DNA of 64,000 bases from Panopea generosa (lineage: Eukaryota; Mollusca; Bivalvia; Adapedonta; Hiatellidae): contig CM055905.1 of NCBI GenBank assembly GCA_029582155.1, positions 64,061,452 to 64,125,451 on the forward strand. The letters run 5' to 3'. Made by a program: the position numbers and the translations under genes. Below are positions 3,801-38,100 of this stretch, in pieces. Below the pieces are notes generated by a model. That model saw only the letters and a list, made by a program, of their open reading frames with translations. It did not search any database and had not been told where the DNA came from. How positions within the stretch are numbered: the stretch's first letter is position 1; each line of letters opens with the position of its first letter.

Positions 3801-6800
3801 CATTCAAAAAGCAAAACGTTACCACCACTGCCATAGTCATAATTTTATTGAATGGTGTTTAAAACCATTTTCAACATATGACATGAAACCCATAGAACTG
3901 TTATCCTTCCAGATGTAACTGGCACTTTTTTCAATATTAGGACATATAGCAGAGTTTGGCCCGATACCATGCCTTCGCGGTAAGAGATTAATGACCTTGA
4001 AACCACAGGCACACGAATGATTCTTTGCTCATACACTTTGTTCATACACTTTGTTCATACACTTTGTTCATACACTTTGTTCATATATTTGTTCATACGC
4101 TTTGTTCATATATTTGTTCATACACTTTGTTCATACACTTTTTTTCATATATTTGTTTATATATTTGTTCATACACTTTGTTCATACACTTTGTTAATAT
4201 ATTTGTTCATACACTTTGTTCAAACACTTTGTTCATACACTTTGTTCATACACTTTGTTCATATATTTGTTCATACACTTTGTTCATACACTTTGTTCAT
4301 ATATTTGTTCATATATTTGTTCATACAAATCATTAATTAAACTTGATTTCTAAGTATCTACTTCTTTTATTTCAGTATGGTATCGGTTTTCTAATGGACG
4401 AAGTGCAAACAGGGGGCGGGGCGACAGGCAAGTTCTGGACTCACGAATATTTCAATCTTAAAGATGCCCCTGATATAGTTACCTTCAGCAAGAAGATGCT
4501 CACAGGAGGTTTCTACTGCAATGATGAGTACAAAGCAACAGAGGTATAGTTAATAGAACATAAGTCATTAAATACATAAAGAAGACTACAGGTCATTTAA
4601 TACATAAACAAGACAACAGTGGTGTGATTAACAGAACAAAAGTCATTAACTATACACACATGGCAACATCGTTAGAATTAACAGAACAGAAGTCATTAAA
4701 TATACACACAAGGCAACAGAGGTATGATTAACAGAACAGAAGTCAATAAATAAACACACAAGGTAACAGAAGTATGATTAACAGAACAGAAGTCATTAAA
4801 TATACACACAAGGCAGCAGTGTTATGATTAACAGAGCAGAAGTAATTACATATACACACAAGACAACAGAGGTAGGATTAACAGAGCAGAAGTAATTACA
4901 TATACGCACAAGACAACAGAGGTAGGATTAACAGAGCAGAAGTCATTAAATATACACACAAGGCAACAGTGTTATGATTAACAGAACAAAAGTCATTAAA
5001 TATACACACAAGGCAACAGTGTTATGATTAACAGAACAAAAGTCATTAAATATACACACAAGGCAGCAGTGTTATGATTAACAGAACAAAAGTCATTAAA
5101 TATACACACAAGACAACAGTGTTATGACTAACAGAACAAAAGCCATTAAATATACACACAAGACAATGATGTTATGACTAACAGAACAAAAGCCATCAAA
5201 TACACACACAAGACAACAGTGATATGATTAGCAGAACAGTAGTCATTAAATATACACACAAGGCAAAAGTGATATGATAAGCAGAACAGAAGTCATTAAA
5301 TATACACACAAGGCAACAGTGTTGTGATTAACAGAACAAAATCCATTAAATATACACACAAAGCACCAGTGTTATGATTAACAGAACAGAAGTCATTAAA
5401 TATACACACAAGACAACAGTGTTGTGATTAACAGAACAGAAGTAATTAAATATACACACAAGGCAACAGTGTTATGATTTACAGAACAAAAGTCATTAAA
5501 TATACACACAAGGCACCAGTGTTATGATTAACAGAACAGAAGTTCCATAGGAGAAAAAGAGGGCGACAATGTTATCATTATTATAACCAATGGATATTGA
5601 CTCATTTAATAGATCAATTTCTCAGTATAAAAGTTAAGACAAAAATAAAACCAAAAGCAATTGTAATATTGTTCATTTTATTCTGAATTGTAATTCTAGG
5701 TATGGTCGATATATGAACTGATCAAATGAAATAAAAAAAATAATAATATGGACCAACCTATAATTATGACAGAACATGCAAACAGAATCACTGACAACTG
5801 AATAATATGACACTGGAACGGCCATTTACTTAACGCCCCTAGAAGCTTACATCAAATATATCTTTTCACCGCCAAAACATTTTCTAACAGGTCTCACTTT
5901 ACAGTTTAATTGTAGTCTTTGTTTTATTTAAAATAAGTTCTAGGGTTTCCTAGATAACAACTTAATATATATATATATTAAAGTATTTTTCCCAGAGCAG
6001 GAATGTATCCGAATATAATAATGCAATATAATTGGTATGTTAAACAGCAGTTTATTTTCATTTTCCTGAAATATACGAAACGTCTCCAAGTAACCACTAC
6101 AATGTGTTACATTGTATTTACTTGGATAAAAAACGTCACGAGGACAGTGGGCGAAGTAATTGTTTTGATTTAATTCCTTTTGTTTTAGCCGAGACTAATA
6201 CTAATGACATTCCATTACTTATGTCGGCGTGATCAAGCTTTGCAATTTTGATCACCGCCAGCATGTCCATGCATAATGAGAACATTTAAATTTTGGTCGA
6301 ATTTGATTTTTTTTTTGTATTTCATATATCCAACAAATCGAACAATAGAAATGTATCGTAGACATTGTATTATGTATTTTTAAAACAAATGAATAGAATA
6401 AAGCACACGCTACAGCAATATCAATCAAATTTGAAATATCTATTAAAGTCCGTCTGTCAGGACATCCAGTGCTTTGATTATATTTTGAAAAAGTAAACGG
6501 TTTATATTTACCAGGGAAACCGAATATTCAACACATGGCTCGGGGAACCAGGCAAGGTGATTTTCATAGAAGAAGTTGGCAACGTTATAAAAAGAGACAA
6601 TCTTCTTGAGCATGTCAAGGTCACAGGAGAATATTTCTTATCAGGACTGAAAGAGATGCAGGTACGTGTAGTTTTATCAAACATTAGTCTGAAGAACGGA
6701 CCAAGCTCTCTCGACTGAGCGCGTTAAATTAATGTCTCACTACACAGTTGAATTGCTTTCGTTGTTCTATATTAAATAAGGTCTAGGATTTCCATGGTAA

Positions 6801-9800
6801 GAAAAGAAATCCACATAGATTTTTTTTTAAGTTTTTGTTTTAATAGCAGGAATGTATACACACAATAAAATGCACAATAACTGGTATATTGACCAGGGTT
6901 TTTTTTTAAAGAGGGTACAGTGACACCCTGGGATTTTATGAAAGAAGTTTTAACATTTACTTTTTTAACACCAGTGATGTCTTGTTGCAATATATGCTAT
7001 GTCAACTTTTGCTCTACTCATCTGCAGCAAGCATTTTTTCTTAAGACAAAAATTCACATGTACGTTGGTAAATTGCAACTTTGATCACACTTGTATCTAT
7101 ATTATAGATTTTTAAAAGAATTACTTTAAAATGTTATCCATCCAATTTCATATACTTGTTATACAAACAATATCGGTACTATCCAATAAGACGACCGCCT
7201 GATAAAGACTTCAACAAATATGGAAAATACAGAGTAGAAATTACTGTATTAAACACAGTATCGTATTTTATTTTAAGATATACTCTTAATACGTTTCAGA
7301 TAAAATATCCAGGACTTTTTGAAAAGGCAAGAGGTCTTGGTACATTTTGTGCTGTAGATTTCTTTGACGCTAATGTACGAGATGGTGTGATACAGAGACT
7401 TAGACAACGAGGTAAGAACATTAGAGACAGACACAAACTGTTTAAATTATGAATAGACTGAAGCACTAACATACATATAAGGTATTACACAGAAAGTGAG
7501 CTATAGATAGACCAAGAGTGATTCGGTTATAACAAAGAGTTGAAGAGAAGTCTAAAATACCGTTCAAACGTCGTGACAACATTTACCCTCGTTACGACTT
7601 TGTTTTAGTTTCGTAATTTCAAAGTTGCGTTTAACCTTAAAGACTTACATATGCTCCGTAAATGCGGGTGCTTAAAATTAAGTGTTAAATAGCGGTGACA
7701 ACATGAAATGGAGTACACGAATGTATATAAAACAATATCGTCTTGCTTATATATATGTTTATCAATTAAGGATTAAAAGCCGAATTTTGAGTTTTAATCG
7801 GGTGATAAAAAACATTAGGCCAGTTTAATGTTCGTGAAGCCCATAAAACTAGCCAAATGTTTTTCATCACCCGAGACTATTACGTTATTTTTGTAATTTT
7901 GATATTCAAAAAGCAAATAACACGCATTAAACAGCAAAGCCAATGTAATGAATGTAACGCTGACATTGTCAACATACTGAATAAGTGCACGCATTTGTAG
8001 GACAACTTACGGCAAACGTTACGTGAAACTACCAGCAAAACAAAATCGTGAAATCAATGAAATGCAAACTGGTCCTTTTAACTCCTCCCAGATGTAAGTG
8101 TTTTTCATGATAGGATTAAATTCATTTTTTCTAGTTTTTATGCATATGTAAAGAATGACGAATCACGCACAAATCTAACATTAAGTCCTTTGGACGTTAT
8201 TTGATTTGTGCGTGATTCGACATTCTTTACACATGCATAAAAAACAGACAAAAATGAATTTAATCCTTATAATTCCAATCCTGATGATTATATTTAATTT
8301 GAGACTCCTCAAGTGAATGAAAAAAACTAAACAAAAATAACTATACGCTGCAAAGTAAACGTGTAAGAATACGTCACCTCTGTCCTGATTGGCATCAAAT
8401 TCTCTACATCTTATATCCAATAATATCGTAACGGCTATGGTTTCCATTATCAGATGAACTCTGTAACATTAGTTGGTTTATTGTAAAATGACGAAATGTT
8501 TTGCGGTGAAAAAATTAAACCCCCCTCCTTTTATCTCTCGATTTAGACAAATAAAAAAATCAATAATTCCAGGAAATACCCACACAGTGTAGACGCTAAC
8601 GTTATTGTTTAGGGTTTGTCTACACGCTTGTTTTTCAAAAATGTGTTAATATTTACGAACGTTATATAAATCCACGCTCATTTATGGAGAATCCGAATTT
8701 GGAATTTTACGTGCAAGGTTTGTGTATTTACATTGTCTCACGATCGTCTGCTTCCGAACTTCAACTACATGTTTTTATTTCATTTTTCAAGGCTATAGAA
8801 TAAATTGGTCTGTGGAAATTTTTGTCAACAACTAATATTCACGTTCGGTAAACCAGGGTTGTGTTCAACGGTATACTGTATATCTCAAATATGAACATTT
8901 TATGACCTATTTCATTGTTTCTCAAAACAACTTATGGTCTGATTGTGGCGCCTATTTAAATCACTGAACCAAAGAAATCTATAAAACAATAAACCGATGA
9001 AACCGCTAGGACTAGATCTAACATTTGTTTTTGTTGTATTTTATTAATAAATAAGCGTGGAACCGTAGTGAACGTCATTTAAGTTCGTATATTGTTAAAC
9101 CGACCCTCAAAATGTCGATGCTTCTTTGTTACGCGAGAAACGTAAAAATAGTCCGGTTCCAGGGTTTTATCGAAACATAAAAGTCTTTAAAAAATTGACG
9201 TTGTCTAATGAAAGTGCTTTAAATACATATATGATAATGAGATTCGAATTAGTGGGAAATGAAATGCAGTGAATCTATATAGTAAATTTAGGTCAATTAC
9301 AGTGGGAATGTAAATATGTTAGCATAGATTATCGTTTTACTATGGATACAAACCACCTTATATTGCTGTGCTATTCAGAGGCAATTTCGGTAATGTTTTA
9401 TATTAAAAAATTACAAAATTGCAGAGAACACCATATAAATATATACAATAATATCAATATGTTAGTATCGGATGTTGACGTATATCACTTAACACTTAAA
9501 AATGTCGCATCTTTAATCCATTCAAAACGAAAATCCCCATAGGATGAAATTCTAAAGAACAATTTAAAGCATTGTTTTATTGCTATATTTGAAAATGATG
9601 AATAATGTTAACTCTTCATTACAATGAACGTAGTACAACTTTATGAGTTTTTAAGAAAATACTTAATAGTAATATATATATCATATGTGTATCATGCCAA
9701 CTATACTGGTTTTGATTTTGACTCATATGATTTACTTCCTAATATAATATAAGTTATAAAATAAGATTTTTTTTCATTTATTGAATGCACTATAAATTAA

Positions 9801-10711
9801 GCATTTATTGATAATTTAATATCTAGTTGTAATAAAAATTGACGGTTAAAATTTAATGAATAATTCATAAAGGATGCAGTATGTATGTTGTATTGGTTAT
9901 ACTTCATTAACGATTAGGATTTGAAATCGTTTTTTAATTTAAAATTGTAAAATCCCTATTACACAAATGCTGTTCCAAATTGCTATGCAAATCATATCCA
10001 TTATAAATATTCATAGCCCTCATTTGTGAAGGAACAAATCTATATATTACCATTGTTCTATTTATGTTGAAGGTGTGAATACGGGAACCAATGGTTACAG
10101 AACCTCATTTGTGAAGGAATAATTCTATATATTAACAGTTTTCGATTTATTTTGAAGGTGTGAATACGGGAACCAGTGGTTACAGATCCTCATTTGTGAA
10201 GGAAGAATTCTATATATTAACATTTTTCTACTATTTCAAAGGTCGGAATAAATACGGGAACCAGTGGTTACAGAACCTCATTTGTGAAGGAATAATTCTA
10301 TATATTACCATTGTTCCATTTATTTTGAAGGTATGAATACGGGAACCAATGGTTACAGAACCTCATTTGTGAAGGAATAATTCTATATATTAACAGTTTT
10401 CGATTTATTTTGAAGGTGTGAATACGGGAACCAGTAGTTACAGAACTTCATTTTTGAAGGAATAATTCTATATATTACCATTGTTCCATTTATTTTGAAG
10501 GTATGAATACGGGAACCAATGGTTACAGAACCTCATTTGTGAAGGAATAATTCTATATATTAACATTTTTTCCATTTATTTTGAAGGTGTAAATACGGGA
10601 ACCTGTGGTTACAGAACACTGAGATTTCGACCGACCTTGACCTTACAGAAGCATCACGTGGATATGTTCATGGAGAGATTTGATTCTGTTCTTTCACAAA
10701 CAAAGAATTAG
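767..10711 (+). CDS. ABAT: 4-aminobutyrate aminotransferase (GABA transaminase), 3' two-thirds, 7 exons
   Basis: This mitochondrial class III PLP-dependent aminotransferase moves the amino group of GABA to 2-oxoglutarate, giving succinate semialdehyde and glutamate. Coding exons are 767-893, 1232-1380, 3204-3341, 4376-4543, 6515-6661, 7300-7411 and 10587-10711. All have AG/GT borders and matching phases, and join into 966 nt (321 residues plus TAG). The N-terminal part, including the transit peptide and the metal-cluster cysteines known in mammals, lies upstream of the window. Family landmarks appear in order: [42 protein letters not shown] (its Asp contacts the pyridine nitrogen), [10 protein letters not shown] (contains the PLP lysine), [15 protein letters not shown] and LRFRPTLTL (its Arg is expected to bind the substrate carboxylate). 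The identity rests on remembered similarity to vertebrate ABAT over the whole stretch. A second copy of the last three exons follows in a tandem duplication. Confidence 0.93.
921..1008. mobile_element. Short foldback element
   Basis: AGCATAATTTTGGCTAGTT faces AACTAGCCC...CAAAATTGTGCT as an imperfect inverted repeat of about 88 bp. It shares the GGC-AGTTTAATGTT core with the element at 7799-7872. It is probably a small MITE in the ABAT intron between exons a and b. Confidence 0.5.
1232..1380 (+). CDS. ABAT: ABAT exon b
   Basis: The acceptor is TTATAG at 1226-1231 and the donor is GTAGGT at 1381. The first two bases complete the Gly codon opened by exon a. The exon encodes the conserved [12 protein letters not shown] block and an acidic helix ending in RRCLEE. 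It finishes in phase 0. Confidence 0.9.
1585..3115 (+). repeat. Degenerate ~60-bp tandem repeat, interrupted
   Basis: Copies of a TTCACACGATGTAGC / TTATTTTCAAGACCACCTAGG unit occur at 1585-1778, about 2246-2580 and, more decayed, 2940-3115. A block of about 465 bp (1779-2245) with no such units lies between them and is flanked by TATAAC on both sides, suggesting an inserted element of unknown type. The array fills most of the intron between exons b and c. Confidence 0.6.
3204..3341 (+). CDS. ABAT: ABAT exon c
   Basis: The acceptor is GGTCAG at 3198-3203 and the donor is GTAATA at 3342, phase 0 on both sides, 46 codons. It carries [15 protein letters not shown], whose Glu and Gly residues line the active site in this family, followed by YASSDFF and SLRDITKK. 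Confidence 0.9.
4027..4327 (+). repeat. 12/13-bp minisatellite upstream of ABAT exon d
   Basis: About 24 units alternate between TTCATACACTTTG (13 bp) and TTCATATATTTG (12 bp). The open frames through it are repeat artefacts. It ends 48 bp before exon d. Confidence 0.92.
4376..4543 (+). CDS. ABAT: ABAT exon d with PLP-binding motifs
   Basis: The acceptor is ATTTCAG at 4369-4375 and the donor is GTATAG at 4544, phase 0, 56 codons. It carries [17 protein letters not shown] and [12 protein letters not shown], the cofactor-binding Asp and Lys region. The exon is boxed in by repeats: a 12-13-bp array ends about 50 bp upstream, and a 50-bp array starts inside its last codons and runs into the intron. 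Confidence 0.93.
4530..5545 (+). repeat. 50-bp minisatellite that begins in the end of ABAT exon d
   Basis: About 20 units of a 50-bp motif (GATTAACAGAACAGAAGTCA, then TTAAATATACACACAAGGCAACAGTGTTAT). The first unit overlaps the last 14 bases of exon d and its donor (AAAGCAACAGAG/GTATAG), and early intronic units keep ACAGAG/GTATG or ACAGAG/GTAGG. Confidence 0.9.
6515..6661 (+). CDS. ABAT: ABAT exon e (copy 1)
   Basis: The acceptor is TTACCAG at 6508-6514 and the donor is GTACGT at 6662, phase 0, 49 codons. It starts [14 protein letters not shown] and continues through an [13 protein letters not shown] helix. It lies about 240 bp inside the left end of the 6258-bp tandem duplication and has a twin at 12773-12919. 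Confidence 0.9.
6733..7032 (+). mobile_element. Truncated copy of the GTCTCACTACACAG-end element
   Basis: It starts GTCTCACTACACAGTTGAATT and matches the element at 28912-29360 over about 300 bp, but lacks the right terminal repeat. It is duplicated at 12991-13290. More diverged relatives are at 5889-6060 and, inverted, at 56500-56710. Confidence 0.6.
7300..7411 (+). CDS. ABAT: ABAT exon f (copy 1)
   Basis: The acceptor is GTTTCAG at 7293-7299 and the donor is GTAAGA at 7412. The exon starts in phase 0 and ends in phase 1. It encodes [20 protein letters not shown] and a RLRQRG end, matching the RGRGTFCSFD region of vertebrate ABAT. Its twin is at 13558-13669. Confidence 0.9.
7799..7872. mobile_element. 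Short foldback element (also at 14057-14130)
   Basis: GGGTGATAAAAAACATT faces AATGTTTTTCATCACCC, with inner GGCCAGTTT/AAACTAGCC, making a 74-bp hairpin. It is related to 921-1008. The 14057-14130 copy is part of the 6258-bp duplication. Confidence 0.6.
8111..8272. mobile_element. Foldback element with ~63-bp arms (also at 14369-14530)
   Basis: The left arm AGGATTAAATTCATTTT through ATGACGAATCACGCACAAAT is mirrored by ATTTGTGCGTGATTCG through AATGAATTTAATCCT, around a 25-bp loop. A diverged relative lies at 19823-19967. It is a probable palindromic MITE. Confidence 0.7.
10018..10608 (+). repeat. 85-bp minisatellite built from the ABAT terminal-exon acceptor (copy 1)
   Basis: Seven occurrences of a unit that contains TTTTGAAG/GTGTGAATACGGG, AACCAGTGGTTACAGAACC, then CTCATTTGTGAAGGAATAA; the seventh is the start of the true terminal exon. 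In the decoys the ABAT frame runs [15 protein letters not shown] and stops. Confidence 0.92.
10587..10711 (+). CDS. ABAT: ABAT terminal exon g (copy 1)
   Basis: The acceptor is TTTTGAAG at 10579-10586, and the first two bases complete a Gly codon. The exon reads [19 protein letters not shown], then a [11 protein letters not shown] helix, and stops at TAG 10709-10711. It is the only copy of the motif that continues into RFRPTL. Six upstream copies of its first 35 or so bases diverge and stop early. AATAAA at 10831-10836 is a candidate polyadenylation signal. Confidence 0.9.
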
Positions 10712-10858
10712 CCCAAACACCGTAGTTTTAAATATTTTACACTAAGGTCAAGATTAATTTCTTGCGCTGTGATGTTTGAACTATCAGTAACCGTGTATTT
10801 CGTCTTTAAGGAGATTACGGTTAAAAAAATAATAAAGCTAAAGTTGTTATTCAATGTG

Positions 10859-11187
10859 ATTGCAGGGGTCGTGAGTTCGAATACCCCGCCCGGCAACAGT
10901 CTCCGTGATGATTGATATACGACATTGTGTCTCATTATCATTCGTCTCTCACCACTGATTCAAGTGGGAATATTATCAGTTACTTGGGATCCTAAATGAT
11001 TAACAAATACGCGAGCAAACCTCATCTTCGCAAGCAACTGATAACTTTCCCACTTGAATCACGAATGATAATGAGACACAATGTCGTCTATCAATCATCA
11101 AGGCGACTGGTCCTGGCGGGGATTCGAGCTCACGACCCCTGGATTGATATTCAGTCGCGTAACCGACTGATCTAATCGGGCCCGAAT
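10859..11187. mobile_element. Inverted pair of tRNA-derived SINE fragments (also at 17117-17445)
   Basis: A 5'-truncated plus-strand copy (10859-10989, starting in the B box GTTCGAATACCCC) faces a minus-strand copy (11012-11187). The minus copy includes the tRNA-like head, whose complement reads TAGATCAGTCGGTTACGCGA and then a B box. Both contain the CATTATCATTCG and CAAGTGGGAAAGTTATCAGT body seen in 20484-20773. Confidence 0.75.
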
Positions 11188-12772
11188 GGTTGTATATCTT
11201 GTTCCTACTTATTGGCGTTTGCAGTTACAGTCACGGAGCAGGTATTATTTTGTGGTAAGCAAAAGAAAATGTCTCTTTAGATAGCTTCATATCATAGCGC
11301 AAACTTCATCGTATTATTTGTGTATCTATAATGTTGAATCATATAGTAACATTATAAAAAGTGAATGAAACATTTAATGTTATGGTTTTAGTTTATTCAA
11401 ATCCATTACGCTTTATCGAGTGTACATATATTACAACAAGGTACGTGTATCTAACAGCAAATCTCCAATTAAACTTACTTTCATATCAGGGTAGATCTTT
11501 TCGACAAGTTAATTAAATCAATTCTGAATGATGGGAGTGAAGTCTGCAGATTTGATAACGGTTAACCTGTTGAAAGAGTACATTTACAGTTTTTAAAAAG
11601 AATAATATGTGTTAAAAACAACGCAGAATGATTGTGTGTATGATGGATTTGGCAGACTTTTATTTGTCAACGGTATATAACTATTATTAAATATTGGTTA
11701 AAATACTGAATGCAATCGATATATTAGAATTGTATTAATATGCTTTTAATTGATTTGAAACTATATCTGAATAAGACTACTTGGGTTTCTTTGTTGAATA
11801 ATCAAATTGAGGCTTTAATGACAGTGTGGCTACATCAAGGTGCTGGATCATCGGAACTATTTATTTAAACAGTAAAACAAATTAGTGATCGATTTATTCA
11901 AAACTGGCATAGTCGTTTAACTGAGTCAACATGTGCTGTCTTTTACAATGGTATTACTAGTTTTAAAATTTTAGTCTTTCTCAAATTTTATCAAACGTGA
12001 TAAATTCATTAAAACTTTTGCAAAGTTGCATCAATAGAAGTAGAGGCAGACCGTTGCACATGGCCAGTTAGAACACCACGAACGGAAGTGCAGAGTATGT
12101 ACTACATAGTAATGCAGGATGAATAACATTATATTATTAAATATGTGCTATATTCCGATCTGTGAAAAGTATATATAAATAAATATTATTGGAAAATACC
12201 CAGCATACCTCAGTTTATTTGTTAAATTCCGAAAACAACAGTATAATAGAAAAAACTGTTATACTAAATGCTTTTCAAATAAGGAATATAGCCATATATG
12301 TATGACACACATATATTTTCAATTAATATTTTAATGTTAAGTAAGATCATATTGCAAAATATATAGTTTCTGACATGATTTTTGAAAATTATTACTATTA
12401 GCATAACACCTTGATCAATTTATTCGATACGATTTATACCGTGAAACTAACATTGTAATTGTAAAATTTTACTAAACCATTATCTGTCCTATTTAATATA
12501 TGCGTGTGTGTATCATGTAACAGATGGGCCATAATGAGAACATTTAAATTTTGGTCGAATTTGATTTTTTTTTTGTATTTCATATATCCAACAAATCGAA
12601 CAATAGAAATGTATCGTAGACATTGTATTATGTATTTTTAAAACAAATGAATAGAATAAAGCACACGCTACAGCAATATCAATCAAATTTGAAATATCTA
12701 TTAAAGTCCGTCTGTCAGGACATCCAGTGCTTTGATTATATTTTGAAAAAGTAAACGGTTTATATTTACCAG

Positions 12773-12919
12773 GGAAACCGAATATTCAACACATGGCTCG
12801 GGGAACCAGGCAAGGTGATTTTCATAGAAGAAGTTGGCAACGTTATAAAAAGAGACAATCTTCTTGAGCATGTCAAGGTCACAGGAGAATATTTCTTATC
12901 AGGACTGAAAGAGATGCAG
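12773..12919 (+). CDS. ABAT: ABAT exon e, duplicated copy 2
   Basis: This is an exact offset copy (+6258) of exon e with the same acceptor, donor and reading frame. It lies downstream of the first ABAT stop and polyadenylation signal, so it is used only if the transcript reads past copy 1 or if exon d splices directly to it. Exon d to this exon is phase-compatible (0/0), whereas exon f of copy 1 to this exon is not (1/0). Confidence 0.75.
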
Positions 12920-13557
12920 GTACGTGTAGTTTTATCAAACATTAGTCTGAAGAACGGACCAAGCTCTCTCGACTGAGCGCGTTAAATTAATGTCTCACTA
13001 CACAGTTGAATTGCTTTCGTTGTTCTATATTAAATAAGGTCTAGGATTTCCATGGTAAGAAAAGAAATCCACATAGATTTTTTTTTAAGTTTTTGTTTTA
13101 ATAGCAGGAATGTATACACACAATAAAATGCACAATAACTGGTATATTGACCAGGGTTTTTTTTTAAAGAGGGTACAGTGACACCCTGGGATTTTATGAA
13201 AGAAGTTTTAACATTTACTTTTTTAACACCAGTGATGTCTTGTTGCAATATATGCTATGTCAACTTTTGCTCTACTCATCTGCAGCAAGCATTTTTTCTT
13301 AAGACAAAAATTCACATGTACGTTGGTAAATTGCAACTTTGATCACACTTGTATCTATATTATAGATTTTTAAAAGAATTACTTTAAAATGTTATCCATC
13401 CAATTTCATATACTTGTTATACAAACAATATCGGTACTATCCAATAAGACGACCGCCTGATAAAGACTTCAACAAATATGGAAAATACAGAGTAGAAATT
13501 ACTGTATTAAACACAGTATCGTATTTTATTTTAAGATATACTCTTAATACGTTTCAG

Positions 13558-13669
13558 ATAAAATATCCAGGACTTTTTGAAAAGGCAAGAGGTCTTGGTA
13601 CATTTTGTGCTGTAGATTTCTTTGACGCTAATGTACGAGATGGTGTGATACAGAGACTTAGACAACGAG
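13558..13669 (+). CDS. ABAT: ABAT exon f, duplicated copy 2
   Basis: This is the +6258 copy of exon f with identical coding sequence and splice sites. One substitution separates the copies just inside the following intron (C at 7428, T at 13686). Expression is unknown. Confidence 0.75.
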
Positions 13670-16275
13670 GTAAGAACATTAGAGATAGACACAAACTGTT
13701 TAAATTATGAATAGACTGAAGCACTAACATACATATAAGGTATTACACAGAAAGTGAGCTATAGATAGACCAAGAGTGATTCGGTTATAACAAAGAGTTG
13801 AAGAGAAGTCTAAAATACCGTTCAAACGTCGTGACAACATTTACCCTCGTTACGACTTTGTTTTAGTTTCGTAATTTCAAAGTTGCGTTTAACCTTAAAG
13901 ACTTACATATGCTCCGTAAATGCGGGTGCTTAAAATTAAGTGTTAAATAGCGGTGACAACATGAAATGGAGTACACGAATGTATATAAAACAATATCGTC
14001 TTGCTTATATATATGTTTATCAATTAAGGATTAAAAGCCGAATTTTGAGTTTTAATCGGGTGATAAAAAACATTAGGCCAGTTTAATGTTCGTGAAGCCC
14101 ATAAAACTAGCCAAATGTTTTTCATCACCCGAGACTATTACGTTATTTTTGTAATTTTGATATTCAAAAAGCAAATAACACGCATTAAACAGCAAAGCCA
14201 ATGTAATGAATGTAACGCTGACATTGTCAACATACTGAATAAGTGCACGCATTTGTAGGACAACTTACGGCAAACGTTACGTGAAACTACCAGCAAAACA
14301 AAATCGTGAAATCAATGAAATGCAAACTGGTCCTTTTAACTCCTCCCAGATGTAAGTGTTTTTCATGATAGGATTAAATTCATTTTTTCTAGTTTTTATG
14401 CATATGTAAAGAATGACGAATCACGCACAAATCTAACATTAAGTCCTTTGGACGTTATTTGATTTGTGCGTGATTCGACATTCTTTACACATGCATAAAA
14501 AACAGACAAAAATGAATTTAATCCTTATAATTCCAATCCTGATGATTATATTTAATTTGAGACTCCTCAAGTGAATGAAAAAAACTAAACAAAAATAACT
14601 ATACGCTGCAAAGTAAACGTGTAAGAATACGTCACCTCTGTCCTGATTGGCATCAAATTCTCTACATCTTATATCCAATAATATCGTAACGGCTATGGTT
14701 TCCATTATCAGATGAACTCTGTAACATTAGTTGGTTTATTGTAAAATGACGAAATGTTTTGCGGTGAAAAAATTAAACCCCCCTCCTTTTATCTCTCGAT
14801 TTAGACAAATAAAAAAATCAATAATTCCAGGAAATACCCACACAGTGTAGACGCTAACGTTATTGTTTAGGGTTTGTCTACACGCTTGTTTTTCAAAAAT
14901 GTGTTAATATTTACGAACGTTATATAAATCCACGCTCATTTATGGAGAATCCGAATTTGGAATTTTACGTGCAAGGTTTGTGTATTTACATTGTCTCACG
15001 ATCGTCTGCTTCCGAACTTCAACTACATGTTTTTATTTCATTTTTCAAGGCTATAGAATAAATTGGTCTGTGGAAATTTTTGTCAACAACTAATATTCAC
15101 GTTCGGTAAACCAGGGTTGTGTTCAACGGTATACTGTATATCTCAAATATGAACATTTTATGACCTATTTCATTGTTTCTCAAAACAACTTATGGTCTGA
15201 TTGTGGCGCCTATTTAAATCACTGAACCAAAGAAATCTATAAAACAATAAACCGATGAAACCGCTAGGACTAGATCTAACATTTGTTTTTGTTGTATTTT
15301 ATTAATAAATAAGCGTGGAACCGTAGTGAACGTCATTTAAGTTCGTATATTGTTAAACCGACCCTCAAAATGTCGATGCTTCTTTGTTACGCGAGAAACG
15401 TAAAAATAGTCCGGTTCCAGGGTTTTATCGAAACATAAAAGTCTTTAAAAAATTGACGTTGTCTAATGAAAGTGCTTTAAATACATATATGATAATGAGA
15501 TTCGAATTAGTGGGAAATGAAATGCAGTGAATCTATATAGTAAATTTAGGTCAATTACAGTGGGAATGTAAATATGTTAGCATAGATTATCGTTTTACTA
15601 TGGATACAAACCACCTTATATTGCTGTGCTATTCAGAGGCAATTTCGGTAATGTTTTATATTAAAAAATTACAAAATTGCAGAGAACACCATATAAATAT
15701 ATACAATAATATCAATATGTTAGTATCGGATGTTGACGTATATCACTTAACACTTAAAAATGTCGCATCTTTAATCCATTCAAAACGAAAATCCCCATAG
15801 GATGAAATTCTAAAGAACAATTTAAAGCATTGTTTTATTGCTATATTTGAAAATGATGAATAATGTTAACTCTTCATTACAATGAACGTAGTACAACTTT
15901 ATGAGTTTTTAAGAAAATACTTAATAGTAATATATATATCATATGTGTATCATGCCAACTATACTGGTTTTGATTTTGACTCATATGATTTACTTCCTAA
16001 TATAATATAAGTTATAAAATAAGATTTTTTTTCATTTATTGAATGCACTATAAATTAAGCATTTATTGATAATTTAATATCTAGTTGTAATAAAAATTGA
16101 CGGTTAAAATTTAATGAATAATTCATAAAGGATGCAGTATGTATGTTGTATTGGTTATACTTCATTAACGATTAGGATTTGAAATCGTTTTTTAATTTAA
16201 AATTGTAAAATCCCTATTACACAAATGCTGTTCCAAATTGCTATGCAAATCATATCCATTATAAATATTCATAGC

Positions 16276-16866
16276 CCTCATTTGTGAAGGAACAAATCTA
16301 TATATTACCATTGTTCTATTTATGTTGAAGGTGTGAATACGGGAACCAATGGTTACAGAACCTCATTTGTGAAGGAATAATTCTATATATTAACAGTTTT
16401 CGATTTATTTTGAAGGTGTGAATACGGGAACCAGTGGTTACAGATCCTCATTTGTGAAGGAAGAATTCTATATATTAACATTTTTCTACTATTTCAAAGG
16501 TCGGAATAAATACGGGAACCAGTGGTTACAGAACCTCATTTGTGAAGGAATAATTCTATATATTACCATTGTTCCATTTATTTTGAAGGTATGAATACGG
16601 GAACCAATGGTTACAGAACCTCATTTGTGAAGGAATAATTCTATATATTAACAGTTTTCGATTTATTTTGAAGGTGTGAATACGGGAACCAGTAGTTACA
16701 GAACTTCATTTTTGAAGGAATAATTCTATATATTACCATTGTTCCATTTATTTTGAAGGTATGAATACGGGAACCAATGGTTACAGAACCTCATTTGTGA
16801 AGGAATAATTCTATATATTAACATTTTTTCCATTTATTTTGAAGGTGTAAATACGGGAACCTGTGG
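16276..16866 (+). repeat. 85-bp acceptor minisatellite (copy 2)
   Basis: This is the +6258 twin of the array before the first terminal exon, with the same seven units and no visible change. Confidence 0.9.
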
Positions 16867-16969
16867 TTACAGAACACTGAGATTTCGACCGACCTTGACC
16901 TTACAGAAGCATCACGTGGATATGTTCATGGAGAGATTTGATTCTGTTCTTTCACAAACAAAGAATTAG
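16845..16969 (+). CDS. ABAT: ABAT terminal exon g, duplicated copy 2
   Basis: This is the +6258 copy of the terminal exon, intact through its TAG, with AATAAA at 17089-17094. It is again preceded by the six-unit decoy array (16276-16866). It would give the same C-terminus as copy 1. Confidence 0.75.
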
Positions 16970-18788
16970 CCCAAACACCGTAGTTTTAAATATTTTACAC
17001 TAAGGTCAAGATTAATTTCTTGCGCTGTGATGTTTGAACTATCAGTAACCGTGTATTTCGTCTTTAAGGAGATTACGGTTAAAAAAATAATAAAGCTAAA
17101 GTTGTTATTCAATGTGATTGCAGGGGTCGTGAGTTCGAATACCCCGCCCGGCAACAGTCTCCGTGATGATTGATATACGACATTGTGTCTCATTATCATT
17201 CGTCTCTCACCACTGATTCAAGTGGGAATATTATCAGTTACTTGGGATCCTAAATGATTAACAAATACGCGAGCAAACCTCATCTTCGCAAGCAACTGAT
17301 AACTTTCCCACTTGAATCACGAATGATAATGAGACACAATGTCGTCTATCAATCATCAAGGCGACTGGTCCTGGCGGGGATTCGAGCTCACGACCCCTGG
17401 ATTGATATTCAGTCGCGTAACCGACTGATCTAATCGGGCCCGAATGGTTGTATATCTTGTTCCTACTTATTGGCGTTTGCAGTTACAGTCACGGAGCAGG
17501 TATTATTTTGTGGTAAGCAAAAGAAAATGTCTCTTTAGATAGCTTCATATCATAGCGCAAACTTCATCGTATTATTTGTGTATCTATAATGTTGAATCAT
17601 ATAGTAACATTATAAAAAGTGAATGAAACATTTAATGTTATGGTTTTAGTTTATTCAAATCCATTACGCTTTATCGAGTGTACATATATTACAACAAGGT
17701 ACGTGTATCTAACAGCAAATCTCCAATTAAACTTACTTTCATATCAGGGTAGATCTTTTCGACAAGTTAATTAAATCAATTCTGAATGATGGGAGTGAAG
17801 TCTGCAGATTTGATAACGGTTAACCTGTTGAAAGAGTACATTTACAGTTTTTAAAAAGAATAATATGTGTTAAAAACAACGCAGAATGATTGTGTGTATG
17901 ATGGATTTGGCAGACTTTTATTTGTCAACGGTATATAACTATTATTAAATATTGGTTAAAATACTGAATGCAATCGATATATTAGAATTGTATTAATATG
18001 CTTTTAATTGATTTGAAACTATATCTGAATAAGACTACTTGGGTTTCTTTGTTGAATAATCAAATTGAGGCTTTAATGACAGTGTGGCTACATCAAGGTG
18101 CTGGATCATCGGAACTATTTATTTAAACAGTAAAACAAATTAGTGATCGATTTATTCAAAACTGGCATAGTCGTTTAACTGAGTCAACATGTGCTGTCTT
18201 TTACAATGGTATTACTAGTTTTAAAATTTTAGTCTTTCTCAAATTTTATCAAACGTGATAAATTCATTAAAACTTTTGCAAAGTTGCATCAATAGAAGTA
18301 GAGGCAGACCGTTGCACATGGCCAGTTAGAACACCACGAACGGAAGTGCAGAGTATGTACTACATAGTAATGCAGGATGAATAACATTATATTATTAAAT
18401 ATGTGCTATATTCCGATCTGTGAAAAGTATATATAAATAAATATTATTGGAAAATACCCAGCATACCTCAGTTTATTTGTTAAATTCCGAAAACAACAGT
18501 ATAATAGAAAAAACTGTTATACTAAATGCTTTTCAAATAAGGAATATAGCCATATATGTATGACACACATATATTTTCAATTAATATTTTAATGTTAAGT
18601 AAGATCATATTGCAAAATATATAGTTTCTGACATGATTTTTGAAAATTATTACTATTAGCATAACACCTTGATCAATTTATTCGATACGATTTATACCGT
18701 GAAACTAACATTGTAATTGTAAAATTTTACTAAACCATTATCTGTCCTATTTAATATATGCGTGTGTGTATCATGTAACAGATGGGCC

Positions 18789-29100: not shown

Positions 29101-32100
29101 CTTTGGAAAAAAGAAGTCGTCAAATGCTCATAAATACATACATATGTTGAAATCCTATATAAGTAATTGTTTTAACACGAGTAATGTTTTATTGCAGTAA
29201 ATGCTAAAACAACTTTTGCTCCACTCATTTGCAGCAAGAAATCACAACTACTATGAACCATTTTGAAAATATATCAAAACCAAATTACATAGGCCTTGTT
29301 TTTAAGCGTTAGAATCATGTTACCGTGGGAAAAAAGGGGGTATAACTGTGTTGTGAGACGTTTATACTAATCCAATACTTGAGGATATACGTATATAAGA
29401 GTTGATATAGTTATAACACAGAGGACGTTATTCAACTGAATGAAACCTCATAACAGAAAGTTTGCAAAAAGATGCAAATTTGTAAAAACATGACATATCA
29501 CTAGTTGACCTTAATGCCGACCAGCAAATAGCAATAAAAGAATTAGGACTGTAAGCATGATGTTTAAGCGTAAAAACCTGCTCTCGAAATTCAGCTATGT
29601 AAATTTATATGCAAAAGGATATTTTTTATTGGACAACTTCATCAAGTTTGATGAAATATTCGGGTATCCCCGTTAGATTCACATCCAAACAAAAACATGC
29701 ACTTGATTCATGGAAATCCAACATAACATGTATGTTCATGAAATAAGTGTCGCACAAACACTCGATAGCTTATTAGATATAAATCAAAATTGATCACGAA
29801 CATGTGTATCTGCAGGAGAGCTGGGGAAACCTGTACAGATAAACGTATCGTCTCTCACCAAGGAAGAAAAAATTAGATACGATGAAGGAATGAACACAAA
29901 TCAATTTAACCAGTACGCAAGTGATATGATATCTATACACAGGGCACTACCTGATATCACGACAAAAGGGTAAGTGTTTGTTTTAAAGGGATTTTATGGC
30001 ATACACTATGATGTTTTCTTATCGGCAGTATGACCAAACAGCGTATTTTAATCGTGGTAAGTTATTTTTTTATTTTGATGACTGGACATAAAGGGGAAGT
30101 TGACCTCCATCTGGTGTATTTTAACAGAAGGTAGGCGGATACTAAACCGATATATGGTTATAAAAAAACTAGTGGTCCTTTATAACGAATAGGGTCCTTT
30201 TTTGTAAGTGAGTAATTATCTCATCGATGTTCATGACCAAGGGCAATTGTCTACTATCAAGGGTTTAGTACCAGAAGGTAACTGCATACTTATCTAATGT
30301 GTGGTCATGCGGGGAAATTGTCAATTCTATGATAACAGAGTATTATTGTTTGCTTAGCAGATGTAGGACCATAGGTGGGAATCGCTCTCAGTCTAATATG
30401 ATAACAGAGGAACATGGTTTGTATATTTATTTTATGTTTAACTGGAAAGTATTTTTATGCATAGTTTCACATGTAGTACCAGAAACGAATCTAATACATG
30501 TCCATAAACGGAAATTGCCCTCGATCAGAGGTAATTGTGTATATTGTTTTATGGAAGGTCATTCGTGACGAGTGTACATTACAAACGCTACACTAGCAGA
30601 TGGTAGTTGTTTATAGTAATAAGGAGGATTCATTTTATGAACAAGGTGTGATAACGTTAGGTAATTATTAACTATGTGAAGATTATTCATCTGTCAACAT
30701 TGATGGGTATTATGTATATGGTAATACAGGGTTATTGTTTCCAATATATATACAGTTTAACAACATTGAACTTCATAATTATTAATTGAATTTATTGTAT
30801 TAGTCGTGTTTTTCAGTTGCCCCAGCACGTTTCGTTCCAATCTCCCTGAGACAAGCGTTGTGATTATCTTCACCAACGAGGGTTGGAGTGTCTTACTCCG
30901 GACAGTCCATAGCGTGATGGAAAGGTCACCACCGCATCTTCTGAAGGAAATTATTTTAGTGGACGATTACTCAGATCTTGGTGAGTGATTATTAATAATT
31001 ATCCTTTCTACTGCGGTCGGTTAAAATAAACTATATATATTAACTGCATCTCACTCCCCAATTAAAAATACTTGCAGGCGGGCATTAGTCTTCGGGTTTC
31101 ATCAATATCTAAATAGCCAAATATATTCCACCACCCGCTGAAAATTCAAACATAATGTCTTAATCAGTAAGTGTAACGATACCTTTTTTTTATATTTTAT
31201 CGGAAATGCCTGGACTAATTGAGGTAAAAATTTTGAAAATAAAATATCACTGGACCATGCAATTTTTATACGGTAACATAAGCTGTGATAATCGGTGCCT
31301 TCAAATTAAGAAGAAATTATTTTGATGTAAGTATATGACTTAATTCATTATATTATTTTGTTATTGACTTTTAGCTAAAGTGAAGTGATTTTATATTAAA
31401 ATGACATATACAAATACTTGGTATTTGTTTATTCAATTTTATTCCAATATCAAATAGCTCTTATGATGGTTTTGAATAACCAAGAGGAAAGATTAAGCAA
31501 CATATATGAATACCTTGTCGAAACAAAATACAACATTCTAAACATACATACACATGTGTGTAATATCAAACTTTATAAAAGTATAGTTTTAAGGGACAGC
31601 GGGCTTCATTATATTAATTTTCATCTATATTAGACTATTGTAATAGTAAATATTATGACATTTTTTAAATATTATTATCATTATTTCTAGTGTTTCGCAT
31701 ATTACGATACACGGCATCCACATATCTAACTTTTTTATTGTTATTACTATTTATTAATTGTTACGCATGCTACGACATACTACAATATGCGTAGTCCACA
31801 TATGAAACTTTTTTTATTGTTATTACTATTTATAATGTTGTACACATGCTACGGCATACTACGATACACGGTGTAAGAATGTTAGTTAAATTGTCATGCA
31901 TATAACATTCTATGCACATTATAATACGATGTAATCGATTATATACTGAATCAAAAAAGAAACTTTCGCTAAATTTGAATGTGAATATTTTGTTAAAATT
32001 AAACTTAATTTGGCTGAAATTTTCTGTTTGTTGTATAATTATGTCTTATCAATCTATTGAAATAGTTAAATTGGACAGAAATTATCAATTTTATTGTTTG

Positions 32101-35100
32101 ATTTGAATTTAAAACAGGAAGAGATAGATTTCAAAATCGGGTAATCAGTAACGTGTTCGGCCGCCGCGTGCGATGATGACTGTTTGACAGCGACGCTGCA
32201 ATGAGAGCACAAGCTTGTTTATGTCAGCTTGTGCGATATTATCCCACTCTTCAAGCAGTGTTGCTCGCAGCTCATTCACGTTGCCAGGCGGGTTTGGACG
32301 TGGGCGTACGCGTCGGTCAAGATTATCCAATAAATTAAAATCCGGGCTTTTCGGGGGCCAATTGTCGATTCATCGCTAAAAATATTGCCCGGCGCTGTCT
32401 TGTCTAATTTATGTGTCCCTGGGCCCATTGATCTCTGTTATCGCGATGACGGCGTACGAAACCGTTCCGACGAACGGACGACGTCCGTGCAAACCGTTAT
32501 CAGCTAAACGAATCCCCACAGTCTGGTGAAAATCCGGGCGTTGTGGTTACCAGGTGTAACAGCAGATGTAGCTGTTTCGATCTCGAAGGTGCTGGTTTAA
32601 GATATAGCGGTCTTGGGCTCGAGTCGTGACACGCGGTCTGCCACTCCGTGGTAAGTCCGCGATACTTCCGGTCTGCATAAATCGCATTTGGAGGCTCCTC
32701 ACCGCCTGCAAAAATGACCCAATTCGTGCTGCAACCTCTGCAGTCGGAACACCAGCCTCAAGCATGCCGACGACTCTATCCCGTAAATTTTGCGGAATTC
32801 GTGGCATTGAAATACCGATGAACGTTTTTTTTTTCCATATGTTTTCGACTTATGCAGTATTTTGAAGTGGACAAATATCAAACACCCATCCAGCCAGTCC
32901 ACGTGGAAATCGGACTTTGAGCTGAATAAACTGACCTCAAATTTATCTATTGATTAACTGACCGATTTTGCAAATAAGAACGATTTTATAAACTACCACA
33001 TGTGTATAGATGTACACATTTCATAGGTAAGCTTGAAAATTTTGCATGTACTTTACGAAAGTTTCTTTTTTGGTTATTTCAGTCATTTTATTGTAAACGA
33101 AGATGAAATGTTCACATATCATGGTATTTGTGTATCTTTTGATTCCCATTTGCAAAACAAGCTGCATATTGATGTAGTTGGATACTTAAGAGAGCTGCAT
33201 TAACCAAGCACAAATATCATTATTATTATTTATTAGATTTGATTATTTATAACATTTAACTGATATTTTAAAGTGTAATTTCTATGTGGCATCATCGACT
33301 TCAGTTTTGGTTTAAGTTGTGTCGTTCAATTTGTGCATTCGAGCCCGGGCTCAAAATATTTATTTAATGGTTGTTGCTGGAGTACAAAGTAGTATTCAGT
33401 GCATCTAATGCTTTCTGTCATTTGTGCAAACAGACAAATCGTATGAAAATATTGTGTTTAATCAGATTGAACAATTTGATTACTACCTGTAACGGCTTTT
33501 TCTTATCAATTTCAGAACATCTTAAAGCACCGCTGGAAAAGTACATGAGGACATTGAAAAAGGTTCGAATTCTGCGTTTGAAAAAGCGCGAAGGTTCGAT
33601 GATGGCACGGACGGTGGGGATGGCAGCCGCCCGCGCATCTATTGTCACGTTCCTGGATTCGCATGTAGAATGCTATCCTGGTACTTCTAAATACTTTTAT
33701 GTGGTTTTGAAAATAAGTGATACAAAATAAGTGATACAAAATAAGTGATACAGTAACATAATTAAGAATGAGCTTGTAAAGTATATAGAAATATAGAAAT
33801 GTCACCGATTATAGTTTCAATTACATGTTTATTAAAGTATCTGTGGACTGATAAGGTAACGATCCAGATTTGCATACACGTCTCACTACACAGTTATGTC
33901 CCTTTTTTCCCAAGGTAACACGATTCTTACGTTTAAAAACAAGGCCTATGTCATTTGGTCAATTAAGCGTAATAATCATGTTCCCGTGGGGAAAAAAGGG
34001 TCGAAACTGTGTAGTGAAACGTACACCTTATTGAAACTGTGCTGAAGATTCAAACTGTTCAACGTTAGGTTAAGATCACGTGGTATTGTCAATTTTCGAA
34101 AAAATACAGTTATTAATACATACTTTGCAGGTTGGCTAGAGCCCCTACTGGACAGGGTGTCTATTGACAATCGTACTGTGGTACAAACCATCATTCCTAT
34201 CATTGACTACACTACCTTTGGAATAACACCTGCTGTGACCCATTTGGTTGGTGGATTTCAGAATTTGAACAACCCAGAATACTCGTGGTTTGAAACCCCT
34301 AAGGAAGTTATGGATATTAGAAAATCGGAAACGGAGCCATTAAAGTAAAGTGTTTCTTTGCCAACATTATATGTGGTGTGATGTTCAAGCTTTTTTCCAT
34401 CTAACGTGTTTACGCATAGTACCGCCATCGGAAATGCCTCCGCGGTGTTGTCGTAAAATGGCGGTTATAAATAACCCATTGTTCTTTCTTCTTAGTAGTA
34501 TTTTGAACATTTTAAAAGCATTTTCATCAGTGTTTAAATTGTGAAATTAGACAAAAAGTGATGCTTAGAAACTGGAGTATGAATACATGATTTCCGAAGT
34601 CTACTTTCACTTGTGTACATGTGCACACTGAACCGAAAGAAAAACTCTTATATGACACATGACACCTACTTTTCCCATCATGCTTTGGTAGTGCAAATGT
34701 TGACAAACAATGTAAGTTTCCCTTCTTTCATTTGGGTCTCTCTCTATGAATGACAAGCGTTCAAACTCTTTCATTTACTATAGAATAAAATACAATAATC
34801 AACGGCGGTTTACACCTTTATCTATATAACGTTTGTAACAGAGTTTATTGATATAAAAGTATTATTCTATACCTGTAACTGTATAGCCAATCACCTCCTC
34901 CAGATGTTACCACGTGACCGTACAGACTATCTTAATTACAATATGTGACGTCTGCTCTTTCAAACGCAGATTATCTTTATTACAATATGAGACGTCTGCT
35001 CTTTCAAACGCAGAATATCTTAATTACAATATGTGACGTCTACTCTTTCAAACGCAGACTATCTTTATTACCATATGTGACGTCTGCTCTTCCAAACGCA

Positions 35101-38100
35101 GACTATCTTTATTACCATATGTGAAGTCTGCTCTTCCAAACGCAGACTATCTTAATTACAATATGTGACGTCTGCTCTTTCAAACGCAGACTATCTTTAT
35201 TACAATATGTGACGTCTGCTCTTTCAAACGCAGACTATCTTTACTGCCATATGTGACGTCTGCTTTTCCAAACGCATACTATCTTTATTACAATATGTGA
35301 CGTCTGCTCTTCCAAACGCAGACTATCTTTATTACAATATGTGACGTCTGCTCTTTCACTTTACCAAACTTATCTGAAACACAGAATACATCAATTATTT
35401 TATAGATCTTACAACAAACTAGCACAGACTTGCACTAATACACAATATGATTATAATCCTTGGAACGTAAGCTGTTCGACACTGGCTAGTCTGTACAAAA
35501 CTGTGATGTCACGGCACATGCAATTAACAATAACATTTCCTAAAGACTAAGCATATGGTGTATCGTTCAATACCGGTTTTCGCCTATACGTTGAATATAT
35601 AATAAACCTTTGTTATGCCACAGATCCCCTACAATAGGAGGCGGGTTGTTTGCCATGAACAGAGAGTTTTTCTTCAAAGTCGGGGCATACGACCATGGCA
35701 TGGGTCTCTGGGGTTTTGATAACACCGAGCTGTCTATTCGGGTAAATGTTCTATACATTTTAAACTAACTTAAATTAGTGAAAATAATAAAATTACTACA
35801 CATGTAGCATATAATAGTTTTGATAATGATAACTATGATGAAATATATGATTATAATTACATTAATAAGATCGATGATAATTATAATGATAATAATAATG
35901 ACAATTATTATAATGATAATGCTATTAGTTATTTACTTATGACTAACTTTAAGGTCATTTATGCCCTATCAATGTTAACACAATGCAAACATACAGACAA
36001 AAAGTACAATTTTGATTAAAGGATAGGTTTATAACATACCGGTTGATATATACATAGTACATATAAATTGTTTTGCATTTCTATCAATATAAATTGTCGA
36101 TTCTGTAAGTAATTTTTCTAAGTGCAAACATCTCATGAACCTAATGTGTTCCCAGACTACACCTAGCAACAGTTCTAATCGGTTACATGGTTTTGATGAT
36201 ATTTTGTCAATACGAGTTAATAAATTCAATATTTTTACTAATTCAATAAAAAGACACATTGTGCATACATTTCAAACATTTTATTTAAATTCATAAAATA
36301 GATTAAACTGACATGTACATGGGCGTAGGAGCGTTTCAATTGTTTGGGGTTGGGGGAAGGGGTGCAGCGTGAGAAGAGATTGTATGAGGGTGTTCTTTCA
36401 GAAACCTGAATACTGTGGGCCCAGTCCCGTTGGCCACCGGCTCCTACGCCTACGAATATAACAGCGTTAAGACATGCATAACACGCAAAATCATAATCAG
36501 TATCGTATATGTCCACCTTTTGCAATGATTACCTTCTCGCCATTTATTACGTTTACCAGTTTTAGTTATTGTTACTGACCCGGCTCAAAAAGTTGTGTAT
36601 ATTACTTAACTTTCGCACAGGATGCACGAGCTTTTGATTGAAAATAGCCGTTCCACCCGAATGAATGCAGGTTAAATGAAATAAGAATTGCTTGAAGAAG
36701 ATATCCATGTAACTCTATATACCAACTTTCATACCGATCTGTACCGATATTGTATTTTTAAAAAAAAATCATATTCTATAGGCTGTCCGATTAGAATTTT
36801 GGCTAATTGCATTGTGGACGTGTCCACGTATCATATAACATATATATATTTGTAAAGATCGCTATTATATTCGGGGTATGTATGTATACAGTTTCTCCTA
36901 TTTCAATCAGATCTGGATGTGCGGGGGATCTCTAGAAATACATCCGTGTTCCCACGTGGCACACGTGTTTCGGGTAAAATTTGCTTGGAAATGGACAGGC
37001 GGTGATGTGAATACTATTCTTCGTAAGAATTCGGTTCGACTGGTGGATGTGTGGTTTGACGACTACAAGCATTATTTGTATGAGAATATCGCTTATAATT
37101 TGGTAAAATAATTATTTTGTGTTTCTTCTCATTTTGTAGTTAGGTGACAATATTTTTACCAGAACCTTTATTAAACTTTTCAATTTAGATAATACTGATT
37201 TACTTTACATTTATTGTTTTAACAGCTTGTTCAATATTTAGTTGTCCCTATAATTTTACCAAGTTTGTTGCCATAGCAACCAAAATATTTTGTTCGCTCA
37301 AACATTAATAAAAGAATCTACCCGATGTCCTGATTTATCTCTATCCTCATATAAAAATTCCAAAAAAGTAGCTTGGATACATGTGTTATCACATGATCCA
37401 GGTTGTATCTGTAATTTTACTTATTTTGTTATTTTGTTATGTAACCTAATTTTTGCCCACTTAACGAATAAACTAACCTGCATTATATCTTCTCTATCCA
37501 CATGCAAAGTTTTTATTTTTTTGAGAAAAAGTTCCAGACAGACGAACGGACGCCGGACGGACGGACGGAGAGTAAACCAATAGTCCCATCCGGTGAAACT
37601 GGTAGTGGACTAACAAGCCATTAGATATACTCTCTTAAAACACATTTAATTGCATGATATAATTCATCGAACAATATATATTTAATTTAAATATGTTCGT
37701 GCCATTTCCACCAGGGTGATTACGGCGATGTATCAGAGAGAAAGAAACTACGTGAAAAATTAAAGTGTCATTCCTTCAAATGGTACATCGACAACGTTTA
37801 TCCGAGCATGAACATCCCTCCAAGACGTATATTTATAGGAGAGGTAAGTGTATGACACCTTTAAAGTGTCATTTCTTCTAATGGTTCATCGACATCGTTT
37901 ATCCGAGCATGAACATTCCCTCAAGACGTTTATTTATAGAAGAGGTAAGTGTATGACAACTTTAAAGTCTCATTTCATCCAATGGTACATTGTTGAAATG
38001 TTGAAATCGATATATATATAGGAGAGGCAAGTGCATGTCAGCGTTAAAGGGGCATACACCAATATCGAAAGCAATATTTATAGGAGAGGCAAGTGTATGG

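Follow-up and report, generated by a model that had tools for sequence, protein, structure and literature searches.

Tandem copies of the terminal-exon acceptor in a Panopea generosa GABA transaminase gene

Repeated exon edges in other genes

The closest described counterparts of the arrangement reported here are the "mirages" of lancelet genes, a described class of tandemly repeated intron-exon boundaries. In the globin gene BflGb6, the unit consists of an intron end and an exon start, and two haplotypes carry 6 and 3 units. RT-PCR data on globin genes and Adh3 suggested that regular splicing is undisturbed; the Adh and troponin C mirages are said to yield no aberrant mRNAs, and the same was suggested for PGBD5. 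The authors also cautioned that the repeated AG/GT signals could serve as cryptic sites. Among the matches listed in the open-licence literature, the mirage type was found for lancelets only.

Related behavior has been described elsewhere. In human genes lying in segmental duplications, exon-intron boundary repeats can give rise to novel introns and to alternative transcripts (PMC2812944), and in human polyubiquitin UBC a tandem array of dual-specific AGGT sites is spliced in variable unit numbers, as seen by RT-PCR (PMC10809524). Recursive splicing, in which a site is used as acceptor and then as donor, has been reviewed (PMC5126111). In potato, a new intron arose from a tandem duplication spanning an intron-exon boundary, and for one C. 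elegans minisatellite over-representation near regions of alternative splicing has been reported (PMC4039745).

The 85-bp array and its genomic setting

The window, by which we mean the whole stretch of 64,000 nucleotides that was analysed, has a GC content of 31.9%, which is below the ~41% of lancelets. It contains the 3' part of a gene for GABA transaminase (ABAT), with ABAT exons that, going by homology and splice signals, start at 1232, 3204, 4376, 6515, 7300 and 10587, and a gene for a polypeptide N-acetylgalactosaminyltransferase (GALNT). Translations of the last five ABAT exons, joined to 229 aa, matched pig 4-aminobutyrate aminotransferase (4y0h, 1ohv) over 226 residues with E ~2e-76, and a 327-aa join of GALNT exon pieces (~29816-37843) had GALNT9 as its best solved relative (E 3.5e-100). 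ARAGORN with bacterial settings found no tRNA genes within the window, and no Rfam family reached its gathering threshold there. Two foldback elements were observed, one within the last ABAT intron (8112-8267) and one just 3' of the candidate ABAT poly(A) signal (10853-11151), the latter looking by eye like a tRNA-derived SINE, yet one without an ARAGORN tRNA.

TRF placed an 85-bp unit, repeated 7.0 times with 88% matches and a score of 931, at the junction of the last ABAT intron and the terminal exon (Table 1). The seven units lie in one register, with a mean column identity of 89% (pairwise 81-99%) and acceptors spaced 84-89 bp apart, and AAG/GT is kept at the same place in every one of them. 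Whereas each of units 1-6 is followed by the intron part of another unit, unit 7 leads into the coding remainder. The exon part is identical in units 4 and 6 and the intron part in units 2 and 5, and this sharing of whole parts gives the patchwork expected of tandem-repeat turnover. A profile built from the seven units, which favors them, scored them at 74-90 bits; a scan of the window outside this array and its duplicate found no further units or relics above 6.2 bits, so the array is not a chance resemblance. The array is real and constitutes an exon-edge minisatellite within ABAT. The initial annotation had described an 85-bp unit with six upstream acceptor copies, and only the final copy as leading on into the RFRPTL segment, and both statements were borne out. 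As a separate observation, a hexamer resembling a poly(A) signal, AATAAA, lies at 10247 within the rearranged unit 3.

Table 1. Coordinates of the features discussed, in positions of the window.
Feature	Position	Strand	Remark
ABAT (GABA transaminase), 3' part	in window	+	homology and splice signals
50-bp array	4530..5543	+	first degenerate unit is end and donor of ABAT exon 4376-4543; parallel case
6.26-kb block, first copy	6272..12530	+	last three ABAT exons and array
Penultimate ABAT exon (IKYPG...RQRG)	7300..7411	+	phase 1 end at CGAG/GTAAGA
Last ABAT intron	7412..10586	+	array at 3' end
85-bp x 7 array	10018..10617	+	per unit ~54 bp intron end and 31 bp terminal-exon start
Unit 1	10018..10102	+	decoy, first exon base 10073; stop within own copy
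Unit 2	10103..10186	+	decoy acceptor 10158; local TAA gone (GAAGAA), frame runs into later units
Unit 3	10187..10275	+	decoy acceptor 10242 (AAAG/GTCGG); extra bases, frameshift, lowest acceptor score of seven
Unit 4	10276..10360	+	decoy acceptor 10331; AAG/GTATGA donor-like
Unit 5	10361..10445	+	decoy acceptor 10416
Unit 6	10446..10530	+	decoy acceptor 10501; AAG/GTATGA donor-like
Unit 7	10531..10617	+	true acceptor; sole unit continuing into RFRPTL
Terminal ABAT exon, coding part and stop	10587..10711	+	starts within unit 7
AATAAA, candidate poly(A) signal	10831..10836	+	
6.26-kb block, second copy	12530..18788	+	one mismatch, 7428 C / 13686 T
Second 85-bp array	16276..16875	+	6.26-kb duplication
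Second terminal ABAT exon	16845..16969	+	6.26-kb duplication
GALNT gene	3' of ABAT; candidate limits ~22749 and ~43024	+	limits read from ORFs
101-bp array	37760..37990	+	repeats end and donor (37844) of GALNT exon; parallel case

By its anatomy, as far as this can be read from the DNA, the array fits the mirage class. As in the lancelet genes, the unit spans an exon edge in the layout of BflGb6 (AAG/GT with ~31 exon and 54 intron bases, in 7 copies), there are several units, many with AG/GT, and the authentic section is distinct, unit 7 alone being joined to the authentic remainder of the exon. 5' edges are affected in lancelets too, which compares with the 50-bp and 101-bp arrays found here. 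The differences lie in the gene, ABAT, and in the unit length, which is 85 bp here and, in lancelets, 150-160 bp in BflGb6, 157 bp in BflGb9 and 10-72 bp in Adh3. The human repeats likewise are minisatellites at exon-intron boundaries, and the array described here also lies within a duplicated block, but their units are shorter and fewer on average (~30 bp x 4; PMC2812944). With UBC, the array shares regularly placed AG/GT sites that are potential acceptors or donors, so that whole units are removable in principle; the UBC units, however, are complete coding monomers of 228 nt in frame (PMC10809524), whereas the ABAT units are mostly intron, 84-89 nt long, and would cause a frameshift or a stop if retained. 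As in the potato case, a duplicated boundary could supply donor and acceptor from adjacent copies, although here in an array of seven units. Splicing in lancelets and dual use in UBC come from RT-PCR, some of the human repeats reportedly form novel introns in transcripts and the potato intron was detected, whereas for the ABAT array dual use and intron formation are potential.

The annotation was silent on a tandem block of 6.26 kb, and hence on the fact that array and terminal exon occur twice. The two copies of the block lie head to tail and differ by one mismatch in 6259 bases, with no gaps and a 1-base overlap at the join, and their 85-bp arrays are identical. The repeated block may be a tandem duplication of very recent date; the alternative is an assembly artefact. 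We regard it as quite possible, if somewhat doubtful, that the block, and perhaps the unit count as well, was created during assembly, a reading that is compatible with the others discussed below. An identical 600-bp array within 6259 ungapped bases is odd for an unstable minisatellite, and a lancelet globin mirage was judged by its authors to be aberrantly assembled in the draft genome. Against an artefact, the window is free of N and the join is clean; its 1-base overlap is of the kind left by ordinary end joining. The 85-bp array itself is unlike an artefact, its units sharing one register and being 81-99% alike. The surrounding duplication needs checking ahead of any functional claim.

Acceptor strength, computed products and other exon-edge arrays

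The local matrix used for scoring splice sites drew on 16 acceptors and 14 donors, assigned to ABAT and GALNT by homology; the terminal acceptor was not among them. This small matrix carries large errors, with one real acceptor scoring -3.6 when left out. As acceptors, decoys 1-6 scored 7.75, 7.60, 4.84, 8.14, 7.60 and 8.14 compared with 7.85 for the true site, and 12 of the 16 real acceptors fell below 7.6 when left out singly. Because five of the six decoys score like the true site, the acceptor itself gives no reason for the true site winning, and a stronger true acceptor as the cause of the decoys losing was not found with this local matrix. An AG at 8857, in the same intron outside the array, scored 8.1. 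By eye, copies 1, 4 and 6 carry TTACC and copies 2, 3, 5 and 7 TTAAC, which matches the branch-point consensus better, an observation that carries little weight.

The products of decoy use were computed by joining exon 7300-7411 to each acceptor in turn. Products of decoys 1, 4, 5 and 6 terminate before the copy is over, with ..SFVKE or ..SFLKE as their last residues. Decoy 2 has GAAGAATTC where the others have GAATAATTC, so that the TAA is lost and the product is 43 residues longer, while in decoy 3 the ATACGGG lies four bases further from the junction, which puts it into another reading frame; both stop further downstream. The loss of the stop in copy 2 and of the frame in copy 3 indicates that the decoy reading is not strictly kept. 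None of the six products reaches RFRPTL, the first Arg of which corresponds to position 445 in the 1ohv chain, as counted in the alignment with the ABAT join. This Arg presumably forms a pair with Glu270 and has its role with the other substrate, glutamate/2-oxoglutarate; a literature search on the role of this ABAT Arg returned no paper. The initial annotation had taken all six decoys to be plausible acceptors, each with its own early stop. The first part is supported by sequence, five of them scoring 7.6-8.1 and copy 3 scoring 4.8 compared with 7.85 for the true site; the second holds for four, copies 2 and 3 being the exceptions. Its further statement, that a decoy used as the final acceptor removes RFRPTL and everything after it, agrees with the computed splicing of all six.

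Two more arrays in the window begin at an exon edge (Table 1). The 50-bp array comprises 19 copies, and its first stretch, 4530-4591, aligns with the unit at a score of 59 compared with a maximum of 33 in 20 shuffles. The consensus unit is without the donor GT; within the 952-bp array, AGAGGTAT occurs once and AGGT four times. The 101-bp array at the GALNT exon is followed, within 37760-38200, by degenerate donor-like relics at 38011-38055, 38074-38099 and 38156-38199. On the minus strand, an open frame of 342 aa (38330-39358) runs across a 96-bp array with a period of 32 codons, and its openness can stem from the repeat.

The number of such coincidences was compared with random placement in 20,000 trials. 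Twelve arrays within 1232-43024 were chosen by hand from 45 TRF rows after setting aside microsatellites and homopolymers, rows nested in others, rows that were short or low in copy number, the duplicate of the 85-bp array and anything beyond that span; they were set against 31 exon edges (17 at acceptors and 14 at donors, with part of the GALNT edges unassigned), an edge within one unit of either array end counting as a match. Three of the 12 arrays matched compared with 1.94 expected (P 0.31), and a looser variant that allowed exon edges inside arrays gave 2.31 expected (P 0.42). Since arrays fill 6909 of the 35535 bp of gene span (duplicate removed), exon-edge matches are to be expected. 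Enrichment of arrays at exon edges as the mark of a special mechanism was thereby ruled out, and because the matches occur at chance frequency, special targeting is not needed.

Inert repeat, ratchet or switch

We think it probable that the array is a mirage-like exon-edge minisatellite, nearly inert, whose six upstream acceptors are rarely used or tolerated. Selection would hold the last unit because only unit 7 joins the remaining coding exon, and the spliceosome would mostly take the last acceptor because only there does an acceptor lead straight into the whole terminal exon and a poly(A) signal. The decoys would then be seldom used, or their products tolerated, and the arrangement would correspond to the mirage of lancelet genes. 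This reading is supported by the seven units in one register, the patchwork of tandem turnover and the loosely kept decoy reading; by analogy, the two further arrays that start at exon edges of ABAT and GALNT, together with lancelet splicing that is reportedly undisturbed, also point to it. Against it stand the five decoys that match the true acceptor in score, the lower GC content of the window, the lancelet authors' own caution about cryptic sites and the ability of human exon-edge repeats to make new introns (PMC2812944). By analogy with the same survey, an effect of the array on splicing is possible in principle.

The annotation left aside that the decoys are also donor-like, which means that the use of a decoy could be undone by a second splice. 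Each AAG/GT would act as an acceptor and then as a donor, as in dual-specificity or recursive splicing, the intervening sequence would be removed in multiples of the unit, and the mRNA would be correct from any point of entry; we consider this very improbable. In all seven units the acceptor AG is directly followed by a donor-like GT, of moderate strength in copies 4 and 6 and otherwise weak. As donors, decoys 1-6 scored 4.58, 4.58, 3.27, 6.87, 4.58 and 6.87, compared with 3.13 for the true copy; position +5 is A in the true copy and G in every decoy. Copies 4 and 6 (6.9) exceed 7 of the 14 real donors, but decoys 1, 2, 3 and 5 exceed only 1-2 of them, and GTs of the same intron outside the array, at 7668 (7.2) and 8094 (6.8), score like copies 4 and 6. 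Nor is the true copy clearly protected, given that a second GT two bases on, at 10589, scores 4.9 and thus higher than four of the six decoys; the +5 G is possibly one inherited change, and a step of 85 nt is short. Enumeration of splice paths through the array gave 377, of which 64 yield the full-length protein. As 64 paths that use decoys only as zero-length ratchet points are possible, the direct path included, and all of these must be full-length, we deduce that the 64 are exactly those. In its favor, the tandem AGGT array of human UBC is spliced in variable unit numbers (PMC10809524). We hold it to be very improbable that such a self-erasing ratchet lets the gene tolerate a growing array, in which case the failed fraction would be truncated ABAT at a level set by the unit number.

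Also very improbable is a regulated choice of decoys that would switch off GABA breakdown through a C-terminally truncated, inactive enzyme, as the initial annotation had proposed. In its favor are six upstream acceptors, five of them scoring like the true one, whose products all lack RFRPTL, together with the human boundary repeats (PMC2812944) and the C. elegans minisatellite (PMC4039745). There was no sign of it, however: the local stop is gone from copies 2 and 3 (even if every decoy product remains truncated), the AG at 8857 outside the array scores equally high, exon-edge arrays occur at chance level and lancelet mirages reportedly leave splicing normal without aberrant mRNAs. The switch is thus possible but unsupported, and a nearly inert array is more likely.

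Were the decoys used, the unit number would act as a copy-number dial on ABAT, a key enzyme in breaking down GABA. If splicing is normal, as the nearly inert reading has it, the array would be another case of exon-edge minisatellites arising readily, and being tolerated, in genes dense in tandem repeats, with three in ~42 kb here. It would also extend the mirage type beyond the lancelets, while repeats at exon boundaries are known more generally from human genes too.
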